A DNA stretch of 64,000 bases from Candidatus Eisenbacteria bacterium (GTDB lineage: Bacteria > Eisenbacteria > RBG-16-71-46): the NCBI GenBank assembly GCA_020847735.1, contig JADLBL010000014.1, forward strand, positions 1-64,000, written 5' to 3'. Position numbers and translations under genes: made by a program. Shown in pieces: positions 5,253 to 13,004 of this stretch. The notes below the pieces were generated by a model, which was not told the origin of the DNA, did no database searches, and was given only the letters and a program-made list of their open reading frames with translations. The first letter of the stretch is position 1. Each line of letters begins with the position of its first letter.

Positions 5253-6128
5253 CTAACGGGTGACAGCCAGCCGTCGAACGAGGTGTTCCCCGCCACGGGC
5301 CGCGCGCACGAAGTAAAGCCCCGCACGAACCCGCGACCCGGAGTCGTCGCGCAGGTCCCACGAGAACTCGTGGGTGCCCGCGCCAAGGGGGCGGTGCGCG
5401 AGTCCGCGGATGCGCCGTCCGTCGAGTCCGAACACCGCGACGCTGACGGGCGGGCCCTCGCCCGCGGGCACCATGAGGGTGAGTCGCGCGGCGTTCGCGA
5501 CCGGGTTCGGAACGGGCGGGGAAAGCGCGAATGCGGCTCCGAGATCGCCGACGCCGGCGGTCGAGCGCACGCGCAGCAGGCCCGGCGTGACAGCGACGCT
5601 CGGCGAGCCCTCGTTGCACAGGACGTGCTGCAGCGTCAGAGGCATGTCGGTGCCCGGGGTGGCCGAGGGGGATACGGTCAACTCGAGCGTGTTGACCCGC
5701 GTGCCGGCCGAGGCGATGGCCGGGAAGCCCGCATTCGCCACGGCGATGAACGACGCGTTGCCGTTCACGAACGGTGCGCCCCAGTAGGGCATCCAGCCAT
5801 CGGCCCACGATGCCGAGCCGCTGATCACGCCCGGCGTGAAGTCCATGCGGAACTCGATGGCCAGGATTCCGAGTCCGTCCGGCGGCGTGCTCGACTCGAT
5901 CGGAACGACGACCGTGGCTCCCGGAGGCGCGGTCACCGTGGGCAGCGTGAACTGCAGATCCGCGGCCGCCGCGGGCCCGCGGACCGCGGCGGCGAGGGAC
6001 AGGGCCATGGCGATGCCCACCGCGAGCCCGCGGTGACCGTTAGCGGCGCACCCGCCGGTGCGGATCGGCGGCAGGCCGGCACCGTTCGTTCCCGGACAGG
6101 CGACGCCTGTGCCGCCGGCACAGTTCAT
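5253..6128 (-). CDS. Secreted single-cohesin protein with FlgD-like sorting tail
   Basis: A 291-residue protein started at the ATG whose ATGA overlaps the stop of the preceding gene; an inner ATG at 6008 directly before the hydrophobic signal segment is an alternative. Residues ~60-195 form one cohesin-like module: a GATVVVPIESS entry strand, LGILAIEFRMDF, and a closing HVLCNEGSP strand. The NEG-x-P signature recurs in all three cohesin-like modules of the upstream gene. The last ~90 residues are the FlgD-like sorting domain (VPNPVANAARL, WDLRDDSGSRV, GLYFVRA). Cohesins bind dockerins; the first gene of this operon has a dockerin-like pair, so binding within the operon product set is inferred. 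Confidence 0.75.
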   Translation of the reverse strand: MNCAGGTGVACPGTNGAGLPPIRTGGCAANGHRGLAVGIAMALSLAAAVRGPAAAADLQFTLPTVTAPPGATVVVPIESSTPPDGLGILAIEFRMDFTPGVISGSASWADGWMPYWGAPFVNGNASFIAVANAGFPAIASAGTRVNTLELTVSPSATPGTDMPLTLQHVLCNEGSPSVAVTPGLLRVRSTAGVGDLGAAFALSPPVPNPVANAARLTLMVPAGEGPPVSVAVFGLDGRRIRGLAHRPLGAGTHEFSWDLRDDSGSRVRAGLYFVRAARGGEHLVRRLAVTR

Positions 6129-8191
6129 CGCACCACCCCGACTTTCCGCGTCAGGCTCCTGCCCGCCGCTTCGAGTCGCAGGAAGTAGAGTCCGGGTCCG
6201 ACCGCGCGGCCGAGGTCGTCGCGCACGTCCCAGCGCGCCTCGTGCGCGCCCGCCGGCAGGGCCCCGTTCACGAGCGTGCGTATGCGCGCGCCGCCCAGAT
6301 CGAACACCTCGAGCCGGACGGGCGAGCCGTATCCGGCCGGGGAGGGCAGTGTGAACGGCACGCGGGTGGAGCCGCGCGCCGGATTCGGCACCGGCGCCCC
6401 GAGCGCAAAGGCGACCTGCGCCGGGCCGGCGTCGGTCGTGTTGCGCACCTGGATCACGCCGTTCGCCAATTGCGGGCTGGGGTCGCCCTCGTTGCACGTC
6501 AGCCCCGAGAGCGTCAGCGCGACGTTCGTGCCCGGCGTCGCCGACGGCGAGATGTCGAACTCGAACGCCGCCAGCGTCGTGCCGGCGTCGTCGAGCGTCG
6601 CCGTGCCCGCCGCGGCCGCGGTGATCGAGTTCGGGGTGGAACTCCAGGCCAGCGAGCCGAATCCCCACTCGGACCACAGCGCCGAACTCACCGGCCGCGC
6701 CGCGGTGAGCGCCGCGCCCGCCCAGGAAAGCGTCATCTGCTCCGACCAGATGCCCAGCGACCCGACCAGCCGGTCCGAAGTCAGGGGCACCCGGACGGTG
6801 GTGCCGGGCGCGCCGGTCACGGTGCCCAGCGTCGCGCGCAGGTCGTACACGCGCAGCATCGTGTTCAGGTCCGCCGAACCAAGCGCATCCTCGGCGCGGA
6901 CCTGCGTCACGCCGCCGTGCAGCGCGGTGAGCAGGCCGGAGCCGTCAATGCTCGCGACCAGTGGATCCAGCACCGACCACGTCACGGGCGGTGTCGGGGT
7001 GCCGCCCAGCGTCATCTGCTGGGTGGCGCCGGCCAGCAGCGTGACCTGATCCGGGTAGACGTAGATCGGCGGCAGCGTCGTGAGCTGGATGTTTCCGTTC
7101 GTGGTCTTCGCGGGAAGCGTCTCGTTGAAGATCGCGTCCGAGACGGTGAGCGTGCTGTTCCCGGTCTTGTCGGGCAGGCCGGAGAACTGGACGTAGCACA
7201 GGACTCCCGAGCCGCCGAGATCGCTGGTGCCGGCGAAGTCCACGGTGCAGAAGTTGGGGCTCGCACCGAGCACGGGCGTGCCCCAACCGTTCAACAGCGT
7301 GCCCGGGGGAGCGCTCACCCCGGTGGCGGCGACGAACGATCCGGTCCACGAGAGCCGGAACTGGCCCGAGCGGATTCCGAGCCCGGCGAGCGAGGTCACC
7401 GTGATCGGCACGGACACCGACTGGTTTTCCGGAGCGACGCCGGCCCCCGCCGTGAGCCCCATCCCGCGGATCAGGATGTCGCCCGTGGTCTGGCTCGAAT
7501 GCAACGCGGCGTCCGTGCCGGTGACCCGCACCGCTCCGGGCGCGACCCCGGTCAACAGGCCGGCGGGGGAGATGGTCGCGACCAGCGGATCCGTGGTCGT
7601 CCACGACATGGGATTCGTGACGCTGCCGGAGACGAGGAACTGAAGGGTCTGTCCGCGGACGATCTCGCCGTTGTCGGGAGAGACGTTGATCTGCGGTGTG
7701 GCGTTCACGGTCAGCGTGCCGTTCGTCGTGGTCGCCGGCGGCGTGCCCTCGTTGAAGAGCACGTTCGACAGCGTGAGCGCGCTGCCCCCGCCATTGATGA
7801 GCGCCGGGTTGATCGTGAAGCGGACGATGACGAGCGTGCCGGCGCCCGCGAGCGGCGCCGTGCCCGCGTCGCTCACCATGATCTTCCCGGTGCCCGCCAC
7901 GTTCGTGACGTTCCACGCGGGCGCGGTCCAGCCGGCCGCGGACGGCAGCGTGCCGGTCGTGAGTACGTTCACGGCGGTCACGACCGTGTTGTTGTAGCTG
8001 AGCGAGAATTGCAGCGAGACGACGCCGAGACCGGTCAGGTCCGCCGTGCTGATGGCGATGTCCACGTTGTCGCCGGCCAGGCCGCTGCCGCTGCCCGCCG
8101 TGACGAGCGCCGCGCGGGCGGGGCCGGCGCCGACGGCCAGGGCCGCCAGCGCCAGCGCCGCCGCCAGCGTGAAGACGCGAGTTCGGAGCAT
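6125..8191 (-). CDS. Secreted three-cohesin scaffold-like protein with Ig-like spacers and sorting tail
   Basis: 688 residues from the ATG at 8191, which has GAGGAG upstream and a clear signal peptide ending at ARA. Modules in order: cohesin-like 30-165, BIG2-type Ig-like 165-245 (VATISPAGLLTGVAPG), cohesin-like 245-372, BIG2-type 375-450 (VASIDGSGLLTALHGG), cohesin-like 450-582, FlgD-like sorting domain 592-688. Each cohesin-like module ends with a related NE(G/T)-x-P ... NG strand. The alternation resembles a small scaffoldin, but there is no carbohydrate-binding module. It lies 28 bases after the beta-helix/dockerin gene and overlaps the next gene by 4 bases, so all three should be co-expressed. 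Module names rest on visible pattern only. Confidence 0.75.
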   Translation of the reverse strand: MLRTRVFTLAAALALAALAVGAGPARAALVTAGSGSGLAGDNVDIAISTADLTGLGVVSLQFSLSYNNTVVTAVNVLTTGTLPSAAGWTAPAWNVTNVAGTGKIMVSDAGTAPLAGAGTLVIVRFTINPALINGGGSALTLSNVLFNEGTPPATTTNGTLTVNATPQINVSPDNGEIVRGQTLQFLVSGSVTNPMSWTTTDPLVATISPAGLLTGVAPGAVRVTGTDAALHSSQTTGDILIRGMGLTAGAGVAPENQSVSVPITVTSLAGLGIRSGQFRLSWTGSFVAATGVSAPPGTLLNGWGTPVLGASPNFCTVDFAGTSDLGGSGVLCYVQFSGLPDKTGNSTLTVSDAIFNETLPAKTTNGNIQLTTLPPIYVYPDQVTLLAGATQQMTLGGTPTPPVTWSVLDPLVASIDGSGLLTALHGGVTQVRAEDALGSADLNTMLRVYDLRATLGTVTGAPGTTVRVPLTSDRLVGSLGIWSEQMTLSWAGAALTAARPVSSALWSEWGFGSLAWSSTPNSITAAAAGTATLDDAGTTLAAFEFDISPSATPGTNVALTLSGLTCNEGDPSPQLANGVIQVRNTTDAGPAQVAFALGAPVPNPARGSTRVPFTLPSPAGYGSPVRLEVFDLGGARIRTLVNGALPAGAHEARWDVRDDLGRAVGPGLYFLRLEAAGRSLTRKVGVVR

Positions 8192-8219
8192 GGGATCGAT
8201 CTCCTCAGGTTCGCGCCGG

Positions 8220-11200
8220 TCAGCGGACCACGATGAGACGCTGCGTGAAGACGCCTCCCCGGAGGTTCGCGCGGACGAAGTAGAGTCCGGCGGGCACGGC
8301 CCGCCCGGCATCGGAGGTGAGGTCCCAGGTCAGCGGGTGGACTCCGGCGGCGAGCGGCCCGTCGTGGAGCGTGCGCACCGCCCGGCCCGTGACGTCCATG
8401 ACGCGCACCCGCGCCGGCGCGCCGGCGTCGGACGGGGCGATGGCGAGCCGCAGCACGGAGGACTCGCGCACCGGGTTCGGCGACGGCCGCCCGAGGAAGC
8501 TGAGCGCCGGCGCCGCCGGCGCGACCGACAGCGTCACGGCGTTCTCGTTGACACGCGCGAACGCGAGCCGCGGCGCCTGAAAGTCCGCCGCTGCGGCCGG
8601 GAAGCGCAGCACGGCCACCTCGCCCGCGGTCAGCGGTTCGAGGGCCGCGAGCGCCGCCGCCGCGGCACCCTCGCCGGGCCGCGCCGCCCGCAGCACGCGC
8701 TCGCCGTCGGAGGCCGTCACGTCCGCGAGCGAGCCGGCGTCGCCGCCGGCCAGCCGCAGCTCGAGCGCCCAGATCGGCGCGTCGCCGGTCACGGTCACCG
8801 GCACGAGCCATTCGTCGCCCTCGCGGCGGGCGTCGCCGAGGGTCACCTCGAAGCGTCCCTGCGCGCGGCGCGCGAACTCGCGGGCCGCCACCACGTCCGC
8901 GGCGCGCTGCGCGCCGTTCGCCGCGGCGGGGAACGCCGGGATGACCCCGGCCACGTACTGGAGGATCAGCGAAGCATCGAACGCGGTGACGCCGGCCGCG
9001 CCGCTCACGTCGCCGACGAGCAGTTGGAGCGGACTCAGGCTGATGGCGGAAACGGCGTACTGCAGCACGAGCGAGGCGTCGTAGGCGAGCACCTGCCCGT
9101 TCAGCGACACGTCGCCGAGCAGCGCGTTCTGGATGCCGCTGGTCGCGAACGGCAGGTAGTCCACGTTGTTGCTGACGATGTCGCCCGTGCCCGCGTTCGT
9201 GCCGAGCCCGCACAGATCGGCGGTCGCCGAAGCGTCGTTCGGGCCCGAAGGGGCGCCCCACCAGTTGCCCTCGGCGTTCACGCAGAACGCGGCGCCGGTG
9301 TTGTTGATGCCGTAGTAGGTGTTGCCGTAGATCGAACAGCCGTGCACGACCGGATTGCTGGAGCCCTCGACCGAGATGCCCACCTGGTTGTAGGCGAAAA
9401 GCGTCGAATCGATCGTCGGCGAGGAATTCACGCAGCGAAGCGCGCCGTAGCTCGAGCCGCTGCCGCCGTAGCGGAAGACGCAGTTGCGGAAGACGACCTG
9501 CGGGTCGATCGCGGTGCCGTCGATGGTCGCGTAGTACCAGTCGCCCGGGGCGGGAGCGGTCAGCGAGCCGTCGTTGTTCGAGTCTCCGCCGTAGAAGTCG
9601 TCACGGTACGAGGTGAACACGATCAGGCTCTCGGGATCGGTCCGGCCCACGGCGCTGATCGCGCGTTGCACCAGAACGGAGCCGCCGCCGCTCAGCTTCA
9701 CCTGCACGCCCGGCTGGATCGACAGCGTCGCGCCGAGACCGATGGTCAGCTGGGAATTGAGGAAGTAGGGCATGTTCTCGCGGCCGGCGACCGGGCGGAT
9801 CTTCCAGAGCACGTCCTGGGCCACGCTCTCGCCGATGACGCCGAGGGCGGTGTACCAGTTGCCCACGAAGGTGCAGTTGTTGAACACCGGGTCGCTGACG
9901 ATGGACATGAACACCGGCAGCCCGATGCCCGCCGCCCGGGTCGAATCGAAATCGCAGTTGTTGAAGACCGGTGTGGAGGCGCCCTCGATGTAGACGGGTG
10001 CCGCCCAGTTCTCGCTGAACTGGCAGTTCGAAAGCGTCGGACCGGCGCTGACGAAGCTGAGGACACCGCCGCTGTAGCTGCCATAGCGGAAGCGGCAATG
10101 CTGGAAGCTGTTGGCGACGTCGCTGCTGACCGCCTCCAGCTGGATGCCGTACCACTGGCCGGGTTGCGGCGTGGACGCGGCGCCGTCGTTCATCACGTCC
10201 TGCCCGAACGCGTCGTCGGCGAGCGAGGTGAAGACGATCAGGCTGTCGGGCTTGCCGACGGCCGAGATGGCGCCCGAGACGTCGATGTACGTTCCGACCG
10301 GGTCGTTGAAGACGCGCCCGAACTTGAGCACCACGCCCGGGTCGATCGTCCACTTCGCGCCGAACGCGATCGTCAGGTTGCCGGCGGGCGCGTAGTTGAG
10401 ATTCGAGTAGGGGCCGATCTTCGCGACCCTCGTGCGGACGTCCTGGGCGATCGTCTCGGACAGAATGCCGAGCGCGAGGTAGGCGTTGTTCGCGAACGTG
10501 ATGTGCTGCCCGTACGTCGGGTTGCTGATCAACGACGAGACGATCGGAAGCTGCGTGCAGTTGAGGATCGTCAGCGAGTCCAGCGAGGGCTGCGACGTCC
10601 CGGTGAACGTGAACGCCGTGCGGTTCTGGAAGAACTCGAGGCGCGCGAAACGCGGGCCGGCGCTGTTCGTGGTCAGCACGCCGGAGGTCTGCGCGGGGCC
10701 GCCGAACTGGAACAGGCAGTAGCGCACGACGCACGACGCGTCCACGGCCGTGTCGTCGAACTGAATGCTGCCCCAGTCACCGGCCTGCGGGGTCGAGGCG
10801 TCGGTGGGGGTGGTGTCGCCCGCGATCGCGTCGTCGCGCCTCGAGGTGAAGAAGATGCGGCCCGTCGTCCCGTTCGATCCGACCAAATTGAGCGAACCGT
10901 CCACGTCGAACACGACGAACGAACTGGTGGGCTTGAGAACGACCTGCGGATCCACGGTCAGCGTGACCCCGCTGGCCACGGTGATGGTGCCGGTCGGCAG
11001 GTACGCGAACGTGGGGCTGGCCGCGTTTCCCACGTTCGGCCGGTACCGGATGCGCGCGTTCTGCGACAGCGTTTCGGACAACAGCGCCAGCGCGTTGTAG
11101 CCGTTCGTCGTGTAGGTGTTGTTCGTGCTGATCTGCGGGTCCGACAGCACGCTCATCGCGATCGGCGCGTAGGTGAGGTTGTCGAAGGTGTTCCCGTCGA

Positions 11201-13004
11201 TGATCGGGGCGCCGTCGCCGTCCACGCGGATGCCGTAGGGGCACTTGAAGAAGGAGCTGTTCGTGATTCGCGGGCTGGCGCTGGTCGTCCACACGCCGGG
11301 CGGCCAGCCGTCGCCCGTGTAGTAGCCGCCGTACGAAATCCGGCAGAAGTCCAGCACGCAGGTCGCGTCGTTCGACGTGCCGGTGAAGCGGAGGTACTGC
11401 CAGTTGCCGGACGACGGCGTCGTCGTCGCGCCATCGCCGTTCGTGTCGGCGGGGTTGCCGTACTGGTCGTCGTACAGCGAGGTGAACACGATGGGCGCGA
11501 CCGACGTGCCGTCGGCCACCAGCGCGCCATCGCAGACGATGCCGCCGCCGCCGCCCTGATTCTTGATGACGACGCCCGGGCTGATCGTCAGGGTCACTCC
11601 GCTCAGGACGTGCAGCGCGCCGTTCATCAGGTAGTACGTGATGTTGGCGAAGCCACCGGTGTTGCGCTGCGGGATCACCGAGTTGACGGCGACGTCCTCG
11701 CCGTGGAGTCCGATCGCGGTGATCGCGTTGGCGAGGAAGCTGACGTTCGTGAGCGTCGGGTTCGCCGCGACCGACATCAGGATCGGCGTGGACGAGCAGT
11801 TGTTGATCGCCACGTCGCTGATCGCCGGGTTCGAGGTGCCGAAGAGCGCGAGCCCGTGCCCGGCCTCCGAGAGCAGCGTGTTGGAGACGCCGATGTTGTT
11901 GTTGGTCATCTGCACCATGCCGCCGGCGTTATTCGTGGTCCCGAACTTGAGCCGGCAGCGCTGGATCGAGCCGGTCGCGCCCTGCGCGAACACGATCTGG
12001 CCCCAGTCGCCGCGCGAGGGCGCGGTGATCGAGCCGTTGTTGTTGGTGTCGTTCGGCGAGCCGAAGTTGTCGTCGTGGATCGAGGTGATCGTGATCGTGT
12101 CCCCGGCGGCCGCCGTGCCGTTCATCGTCAGGTTGCCACCGCTGCCGACGAGGAACGAGTACGCGGCGATCGGCTTGATGACGACGCCCGGCGCGATCGT
12201 CAGGCTGCCGCCCGCATTAATCGTCAGCGAGCCGAGCAGGACGTAGGTGACGTTCGTGATCGGATTCACGCCGACCGTGGCGCCGCGCTTCGTGAGTGAG
12301 GTGGCGGTCGCCAGTGTGCCGCCGCGAATGCCAATCGCGTCGTAGCCGTTGTTCGCGGTCGAGAACGCGAGGCTCGAGAACGCGGGGTTGGCCGTGAAGT
12401 CGATCACGACCGGCGTGTAGGTCGAGGCTTCGATGCTGGTGCTGTTCAGCGTCGGCGCCGCGGATCCGCCGCAATCAATGCCGTAGGTGGACTTGCGGAT
12501 CACGCAGTTCGTCACCGGATGGCTGCAGTTGTTGAAGTCGAGTGCGCCGTAGTTCGACGAGCCCGCGTAGCGGATGTCGCAGTAGGTCAGCGCCGAGCTT
12601 CCGTCCACGGTCCCGTCCGCGAACACGATGCTGTTCCAGTCGGCGGTCGCCGGCGTCGTGGCGTTGCCGTCGGCGTTCGTGTCGCCGGCCGGGTTGTTGT
12701 CGTCCTTGATGGAGGTGAAGTAGATGTTGCTGCCCGCCGTACCCACGGCCTGCAGGGCGCCGTTCACCGCGAGCTGGGCCCCGCCGTTGAACTTCACGAC
12801 CACCCCGGGCTGGATGGTGAGCGTGACGCCCGCGCCGATCGAGATGTTGTTCATGATGCGGAAGGTCGTGCCGACGACGGTGCCCGTCGGCCCCCAGGTC
12901 GTGTTCGCGTTGACGTTCGTGGAGACCTGGACGACCTGGGCGGACGCGGAGGACGCGAGCAACGCGGACGCCGCGGCGAGCATGAGAACGCGAGTGTGGC
13001 GCAT
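8220..13004 (-). CDS. Giant six-unit beta-helix protein with dockerin-like module and sorting tail
   Basis: 1594 residues from the ATG at 13004 (GGAG 7 bases upstream; signal peptide ending SASAQ). Six tandem units of ~205 residues begin near 61, 268, 470, 680, 886 and 1095, each opening with a strand like GVTLTIQPGVVVKF, then a FTSxxDD turn and right-handed beta-helix rungs. Residues ~1297-1360 hold two dockerin-like half-repeats: GDVSLNGQVLAYDASLVLQY fits the Ca-loop spacing D1-S3-N5-G6-D12, while GDVSGAAGVTAFDASLILQY has lost the position-5 ligand. Residues ~1370-1500 look like another cohesin-like beta-sandwich, and 1505-1594 is the FlgD-like tail. No catalytic residues for a pectate lyase are evident, so it may be an adhesin or a polysaccharide-binding surface protein. 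Confidence 0.8.
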   Translation of the reverse strand: MRHTRVLMLAAASALLASSASAQVVQVSTNVNANTTWGPTGTVVGTTFRIMNNISIGAGVTLTIQPGVVVKFNGGAQLAVNGALQAVGTAGSNIYFTSIKDDNNPAGDTNADGNATTPATADWNSIVFADGTVDGSSALTYCDIRYAGSSNYGALDFNNCSHPVTNCVIRKSTYGIDCGGSAAPTLNSTSIEASTYTPVVIDFTANPAFSSLAFSTANNGYDAIGIRGGTLATATSLTKRGATVGVNPITNVTYVLLGSLTINAGGSLTIAPGVVIKPIAAYSFLVGSGGNLTMNGTAAAGDTITITSIHDDNFGSPNDTNNNGSITAPSRGDWGQIVFAQGATGSIQRCRLKFGTTNNAGGMVQMTNNNIGVSNTLLSEAGHGLALFGTSNPAISDVAINNCSSTPILMSVAANPTLTNVSFLANAITAIGLHGEDVAVNSVIPQRNTGGFANITYYLMNGALHVLSGVTLTISPGVVIKNQGGGGGIVCDGALVADGTSVAPIVFTSLYDDQYGNPADTNGDGATTTPSSGNWQYLRFTGTSNDATCVLDFCRISYGGYYTGDGWPPGVWTTSASPRITNSSFFKCPYGIRVDGDGAPIIDGNTFDNLTYAPIAMSVLSDPQISTNNTYTTNGYNALALLSETLSQNARIRYRPNVGNAASPTFAYLPTGTITVASGVTLTVDPQVVLKPTSSFVVFDVDGSLNLVGSNGTTGRIFFTSRRDDAIAGDTTPTDASTPQAGDWGSIQFDDTAVDASCVVRYCLFQFGGPAQTSGVLTTNSAGPRFARLEFFQNRTAFTFTGTSQPSLDSLTILNCTQLPIVSSLISNPTYGQHITFANNAYLALGILSETIAQDVRTRVAKIGPYSNLNYAPAGNLTIAFGAKWTIDPGVVLKFGRVFNDPVGTYIDVSGAISAVGKPDSLIVFTSLADDAFGQDVMNDGAASTPQPGQWYGIQLEAVSSDVANSFQHCRFRYGSYSGGVLSFVSAGPTLSNCQFSENWAAPVYIEGASTPVFNNCDFDSTRAAGIGLPVFMSIVSDPVFNNCTFVGNWYTALGVIGESVAQDVLWKIRPVAGRENMPYFLNSQLTIGLGATLSIQPGVQVKLSGGGSVLVQRAISAVGRTDPESLIVFTSYRDDFYGGDSNNDGSLTAPAPGDWYYATIDGTAIDPQVVFRNCVFRYGGSGSSYGALRCVNSSPTIDSTLFAYNQVGISVEGSSNPVVHGCSIYGNTYYGINNTGAAFCVNAEGNWWGAPSGPNDASATADLCGLGTNAGTGDIVSNNVDYLPFATSGIQNALLGDVSLNGQVLAYDASLVLQYAVSAISLSPLQLLVGDVSGAAGVTAFDASLILQYVAGVIPAFPAAANGAQRAADVVAAREFARRAQGRFEVTLGDARREGDEWLVPVTVTGDAPIWALELRLAGGDAGSLADVTASDGERVLRAARPGEGAAAAALAALEPLTAGEVAVLRFPAAAADFQAPRLAFARVNENAVTLSVAPAAPALSFLGRPSPNPVRESSVLRLAIAPSDAGAPARVRVMDVTGRAVRTLHDGPLAAGVHPLTWDLTSDAGRAVPAGLYFVRANLRGGVFTQRLIVVR
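9640..12860 (-). repeat. Six tandem protein-level repeats in the beta-helix gene
   Basis: The coding region repeats about every 620 bases. Equivalent points fall near 12820, 12200, 11595, 10965, 10345 and 9720. Protein similarity is clear (TIxPGVVxK, FTSxxDDxxGxDTN, DW), but the DNA has diverged, so the duplications are old. Limits are approximate. Confidence 0.75.

Follow-up and report, generated by a model that had tools for sequence, protein, structure and literature searches.

Our analysis of a 64,000-nucleotide stretch of a Candidatus Eisenbacteria genome (hereafter the window; the source is a metagenome-assembled genome, MAG, of 3.66 Mb and 99.6% completeness) indicates that three genes running leftward on the minus strand at positions 5253-13004, here called A, B and C, may encode a non-enzymatic surface assembly held together by dockerin and cohesin modules. 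In this assembly the dockerin of A, a protein with a long beta-helix, would dock on B, a scaffoldin-like protein with three cohesins, and perhaps on C, which has a single cohesin. Weighing the alternatives discussed below, we favour this explanation with moderate confidence. Because distantly related bacteria also have A and B as neighbouring genes, the two products probably lock together at the surface.

By profile and model, the modules that carry this proposal in A, B and C are dockerin and cohesin. The two repeats of the A dockerin read GDVSLNGxVxA[YF]DASL and DVSGxxxVxA[FLYM]DASLILQ. The module scored 15.4 bits against Dockerin_1 when the whole protein was scanned with Pfam; in the genome search it reached 22.6 bits alone and 23.2 bits with its frame neighbours, which places it in PF00404 by family score (cut-off 22.9), and the scores of A orthologues reach 46 bits. 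A profile of eight A dockerins matched PDB dockerins at 3e-11, with the ScaB dockerin of Acetivibrio cellulolyticus (4uyp/4uyq) as the top match, and the AlphaFold model of the module has the dockerin fold, superposing on 2ccl_B, the dockerin of a C. thermocellum xylanase, with a template modelling (TM) score of 0.92 by target length and a root-mean-square deviation of 0.9 over 61 columns. Specificity in type I dockerins lies in the residues that precede the last aspartate of the loop, and in the A dockerin these residues are nearly fixed in both repeats (A-Y/F; in repeat 2, A-F/Y/L/M). A genome-wide census of dockerins and cohesins by family searches found cohesin matches at four loci and no dockerin over the Pfam cut-off other than that of A; the partner of this dockerin, if it is in the same cell, would thus be among the few cohesins of this genome. 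In the beta-helix of A, a PGVVxK-type motif marks the six units (at residues 66, 272, 476, 686, 889 and 1098), and several of them hold a DTNxDG-type loop.

In B, Pfam found Cohesin (7e-15, 55.9 bits), Big_2 (1.3e-17) and, in the tail, FlgD_ig. The protein falls into the Cohesin family PF00963 by family score, and its second cohesin and C do so by profile. The Pfam score of C lies under the 24.1-bit cut-off; its profile matched PDB cohesins at 2e-5, its cohesin aligned with cohesin 1 of B at an hhalign probability of 99.3%, and it shares 41% identity with the part of B that spans cohesin 3 and the tail. A first-pass annotation, made from the letters of the window, had already described a beta-helix protein with a two-repeat dockerin, a protein with three cohesins separated by BIG2-like domains (borne out by Pfam, by hhalign and by a match to the PDB cohesin 6kgc) and a protein with one cohesin, and the coordinates and lengths that it gave are correct. 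It was also right that A, B and C contain no glycoside hydrolase and no carbohydrate-binding module (CBM) that Pfam can detect. It had assigned a signal peptide and a FlgD-like tail to every product: FlgD_ig matches agree for the three tails, and inspection by eye shows clear signal peptides in A and B. In C the hydrophobic segment lies about 35 residues downstream of the ATG, which makes the start of this gene uncertain.

What that annotation missed is a further module in A, at residues 1380-1488: a beta-sandwich of about 110 residues with the dockerin on one side and the tail on the other. In the protein of the window it has no Pfam Cohesin match and no sequence method calls it a cohesin. 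At the corresponding position of Bacteroidota orthologues Pfam Cohesin was over its cut-off in six of the seven tested, and the closest fold is that of the cohesin-like 2jh2_B (probability 1.00, with a modest TM score). Orthologues and fold together suggest that the module is cohesin-like. The first AlphaFold model of A, made with eight close relatives, did not resolve the dockerin; with 31 sequences it was resolved, and the two-module model of dockerin and cohesin (205 residues) reached a predicted local distance difference test (pLDDT) value of 93.8 and a predicted TM score (pTM) of 0.90. Adaptor scaffoldins such as Acetivibrio ScaB join a dockerin and a cohesin in one polypeptide. Since A is predicted to hold both, it resembles such an adaptor more than it does a simple client.

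The B core is present in nine of 47 Eisenbacteria genomes, all of one family, and in each of the nine A adjoins B collinearly. The B proteins of named relatives, which are Candidatus Eisenbacteria MAGs, share 46-62% identity with the one described here; A orthologues share 47-75% in Eisenbacteria and 31-34% in Bacteroidota. Outside Eisenbacteria, a named search recovered the pair in three MAGs, two of Bacteroidales and one of Balneolales; another Bacteroidota MAG has a B that is cut by the contig end. In a wider search, a profile of the five-module core of B matched 22 genomes in a Bacteroidota sample of 396, and 4 in a set of 395 from one class. All 20 of the Bacteroidota-side loci that were opened have an A-type gene (about 30% identity) directly upstream of B on the same strand, and the Bacteroidota loci share no further conserved gene beside the pair. 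When the dockerin-cohesin end of A was used as the query in the same 396-genome sample, strong A-type matches appeared in 22 of the 22 genomes with B, and of the 28 matches above 157 bits, 27 have a B match no more than 1.6 kb away (coordinates compared by reading). The distances of A and of B across 31 loci are correlated (r 0.83; 0 of 2000 permutations, in a permutation test that keeps shared ancestry), and Eisenbacteria form one group in the A tree and in the B tree. A and B are inherited as a unit. C was found in Eisenbacteria only, adjoining B in seven of the nine genomes and located elsewhere in two, and for this reason A and B alone make up the core of the system, which is not, as had been suggested, a set of three products. 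Of the earlier idea of a scaffoldin-type system with a beta-helix client, the pairing is thus upheld, and the description of A as a simple client has to be amended. Two observations on C stand beside these counts: in the relative G005 an in-frame TAG breaks the gene (L041, 13413), with A and B intact, and one of the 20 opened loci (L112) has between A and B a single-cohesin gene (6393-7400) that resembles C.

Between Eisenbacteria and Bacteroidota the modules of the pair have diverged to very different degrees. The dockerin is the best conserved, at 56% identity, followed by the beta-helix of A (33%) and cohesins 1, 2 and 3 of B (28, 30 and 23%); the sorting tails share 24-27%, and the cohesin of A itself, at 19%, is the least conserved. 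A dockerin conserved above all else, with cohesins 1 and 2 of B more conserved than that of A, is what would be expected if the dockerin fits several cohesins of B.

With regard to export, the tail of A exceeds the TIGR04183 cut-off of 23 bits, and thereby has the C-terminal sorting domain of a type IX cargo; the tails of B and C are FlgD_ig-like and below that cut-off. Because a homologue of SprA, the type IX outer-membrane translocon, is encoded in this genome (G000:C20; 499.5 bits with frame neighbours, cut-off 200), the three tails probably serve as sorting domains for type IX secretion; SprA was found in 11 of the 11 genomes tested, this one and ten others. More than 100 candidate FlgD-type tails make such tails general in this genome, so that a tail alone is nothing special for A, B and C. 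Most of the Bacteroidota B proteins scanned end in Por_Secre_tail, after a variable stalk (fn3, ASH, SprB, BACON, Ig) that follows the three cohesins. In three Bacteroidales loci (L056 5444-7825, L057 6027-8408 and L058 2-2080) B has no sorting tail and ends in a two-repeat GDxNxDxxVxxxD-type motif, so that the scaffold, too, bears a dockerin-like element.

We propose that the products of the three genes cross the inner membrane and are then brought to the surface by a type IX-like system acting on their C-terminal tails. There B, fixed by its tail, would serve as the scaffoldin, its three cohesins spaced by BIG2 modules. The ligand would be A, a long fibre of beta-helix whose loops probably bind calcium, with its dockerin plugged into a cohesin of B or of C. 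One B could then hold up to three A fibres, and the cohesin of A could take a further dockerin and so extend the array, which might act as a surface coat or as an adhesin.

Several observations weigh against this proposal. The second calcium loop of the dockerin in the window (DVSGAAGVTAFD) is degenerate; A has a sorting tail of its own and may anchor without B; and linkage and matching trees amount to co-inheritance, not by themselves to contact. Moreover, the dockerin may be occupied by the cohesin of A itself: we judged the pTM of the two-module model to be higher than modules that move independently would give, which suggests that the dockerin may pack on its neighbour. Taken further, this leads to a rival scheme that we regard as unlikely, yet as the most serious one, in which the dockerin binds the cohesin behind it, the two forming a rigid cap where the beta-helix meets the tail, and the cohesins of B serve other ligands or are spacers. 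AlphaFold does place both modules in one confident unit, and they are adjacent in all the A orthologues examined. Such packing, however, need not involve the binding face of the dockerin, the difference in conservation between the two modules speaks against the cohesin of A as its main partner, and the strict linkage of A and B would be left unexplained. An improbable variant moves the same contact between molecules, the dockerin of one A binding the cohesin of the next, so that A forms homopolymer fibres that start from B at the surface. Each of the A proteins examined does combine a single dockerin with a single cohesin-like module, and surface proteins with both kinds of module recur; but the module is diverged, short and without Pfam match in Eisenbacteria, and a sorting tail on each A fits a free polymer poorly.

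Slightly less probable still is that A, B and C are simply co-transcribed surface proteins, in which dockerin and cohesins are purely structural and nothing docks. Ig-like and BIG2 modules are indeed common spacers, but the conservation of the dockerin would be unusual for such a role, and the order of client gene and cohesin gene recurs for unrelated clients. As for a cellulosome-like complex, in which B would collect dockerin-bearing hydrolases, it is suggested by the scaffoldin layout of B and has, in our opinion, almost no chance of being right: neither hydrolase nor CBM was seen in the three proteins, and with the dockerin of A as the sole one over the cut-off in a nearly complete genome there is no enzyme with a recognised dockerin to collect. 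We rejected this candidate, which the dockerin census largely refutes. Docking of A on B remains the reading that we prefer.

Non-cellulosomal cohesins and dockerins are already known in many lineages; to our knowledge, they have been listed for years with their use mostly unestablished. With the clostridial cellulosome the A-B pair shares a non-catalytic protein with several cohesins and a type I-like dockerin; it differs in having no enzymes, no cellulose-binding module and a beta-helix as ligand, and in its type IX-like surface tails, in place of the sortase or S-layer homology (SLH) anchoring of cellulosomes. The likeness of A to Acetivibrio ScaB, noted above, has its limits in the 1200-residue beta-helix and in the single cohesin placed behind the dockerin. 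In Candidatus Stygibacter (Cloacimonadota), as in B, a scaffoldin-like protein carries cohesins in tandem and, at its C-terminus, a sorting domain that is presumed to attach the protein to the surface; the cellulosome-like complex there has a chitinase, an amylase and peptidases as clients and a 3755-aa scaffoldin with CBMs (PMC8542988), whereas here there is a single beta-helix client and no CBM. Anaerobic methanotrophic (ANME) archaea encode non-cellulosomal dockerin and cohesin proteins, some of which, as predicted for A, join a dockerin with cohesins; their domain make-up is reported to be highly variable (PMC9012536), in contrast to the two-gene layout described here, which both phyla keep fixed and which would use a type IX route. 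Archaeoglobus fulgidus sequences are cited in PMC9012536 as further non-cellulosomal dockerin/cohesin proteins. In the literature searched, we found no earlier description of the A-B(-C) cassette, and no report on Eisenbacteria with cohesins or with type IX secretion. A fixed, enzyme-free two-gene cassette that spans two phyla, and in which the dockerin is conserved more than any other module, offers a clear test case, since the prediction names a single dockerin and three sockets for it. The cassette further hints at a way in which type IX bacteria might build non-covalent surface arrays, and it offers new orthogonal plug-and-socket pairs.

The features of the three genes are collected in the table. 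There are 28 bp between the end of A and the ATG of B, and the stop codon of B overlaps the ATG of C as ATGA, a usual sign of translational coupling. An Rfam scan of the window gave zero matches.

Table. Genes A, B and C and their predicted modules (window coordinates; aa, amino acids)
Feature	Position	Strand	Description	Basis
Gene A	8220-13004	-	1594 aa; signal peptide, beta-helix, dockerin, cohesin-like module, sorting tail	Open reading frame, Pfam
A right-handed beta-helix	9300-12917	-	six units of ~205 aa	Pfam Beta_helix 3.8e-34
A dockerin	8928-9128	-	aa 1293-1359, two repeats	Pfam, profile, model
A cohesin-like module	8541-8867	-	aa 1380-1488, directly behind dockerin	Orthologues, fold
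A sorting tail	8223-8480	-	FlgD_ig / Por_Secre_tail type	TIGR04183 24.8 bits; FlgD_ig 1.3e-7
Gene B	6125-8191	-	688 aa; scaffoldin-like cohesin-BIG2-cohesin-BIG2-cohesin-tail	Pfam
B cohesin 1	7709-8101	-	best stretch aa 31-161	Pfam Cohesin
B BIG2 1	7454-7702	-		Pfam Big_2
B cohesin 2	7073-7453	-		hhalign 99.5% probability to cohesin 1
B BIG2 2	6851-7072	-	two stretches	Pfam Big_2
B cohesin 3	6452-6850	-		PDB cohesin 6kgc match at aa 451-570; Pfam 19.2 bits
B sorting tail	6128-6403	-		FlgD_ig 6.7e-8
Gene C	5253-6128	-	291 aa from ATG (start uncertain); single cohesin, sorting tail	Pfam, profiles
C cohesin	about 5559-5960	-		Pfam 16.6 bits, profiles
C sorting tail	about 5256-5513	-		FlgD_ig

The pair may be one case of something wider. 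Other Bacteroidota proteins share the dockerin-cohesin-tail end of A on quite different bodies (starch-binding modules, a subtilase, fn3 repeats, Kelch plus laminin-G), and in six of eight such unrelated client loci the next gene encodes a cohesin protein, which in most cases bears a sorting tail. Client first and cohesin partner second appears to be the rule, with A-B as its most conserved case. It is possible, although we hold this tentatively and rate it well below the docking of A on B, that Bacteroidota and Eisenbacteria possess a general type IX-exported plug-and-socket toolkit, in which clients (beta-helix, starch-binding, subtilase or adhesin) ending in a dockerin-cohesin dyad, each encoded immediately upstream of its own cohesin partner, would build extendable surface arrays, enzyme-free or mixed.

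Five loci of genomes with the A-B pair (L126, L127, L128, L129 and L133) hold a second dockerin-cohesin client, and the gene after it always encodes a cohesin protein. Four of these five clients lie 12-24 kb from A-B, and those of L127 and L128 have starch-binding modules. The genome of the window contains a second set as well, on contig C26 (L001 4911-10268), where a 1308-aa NosD-like beta-helix protein has a divergent long-loop dockerin-like repeat (below Pfam detection), a cohesin and a FlgD tail, with two small genes downstream that each match the cohesin profile. Divergent dockerin-like repeats, a cohesin and a FlgD tail were also seen by eye at two other places in this genome (L002 7549-9546 on C2 and L003 4936-9165 on C6).

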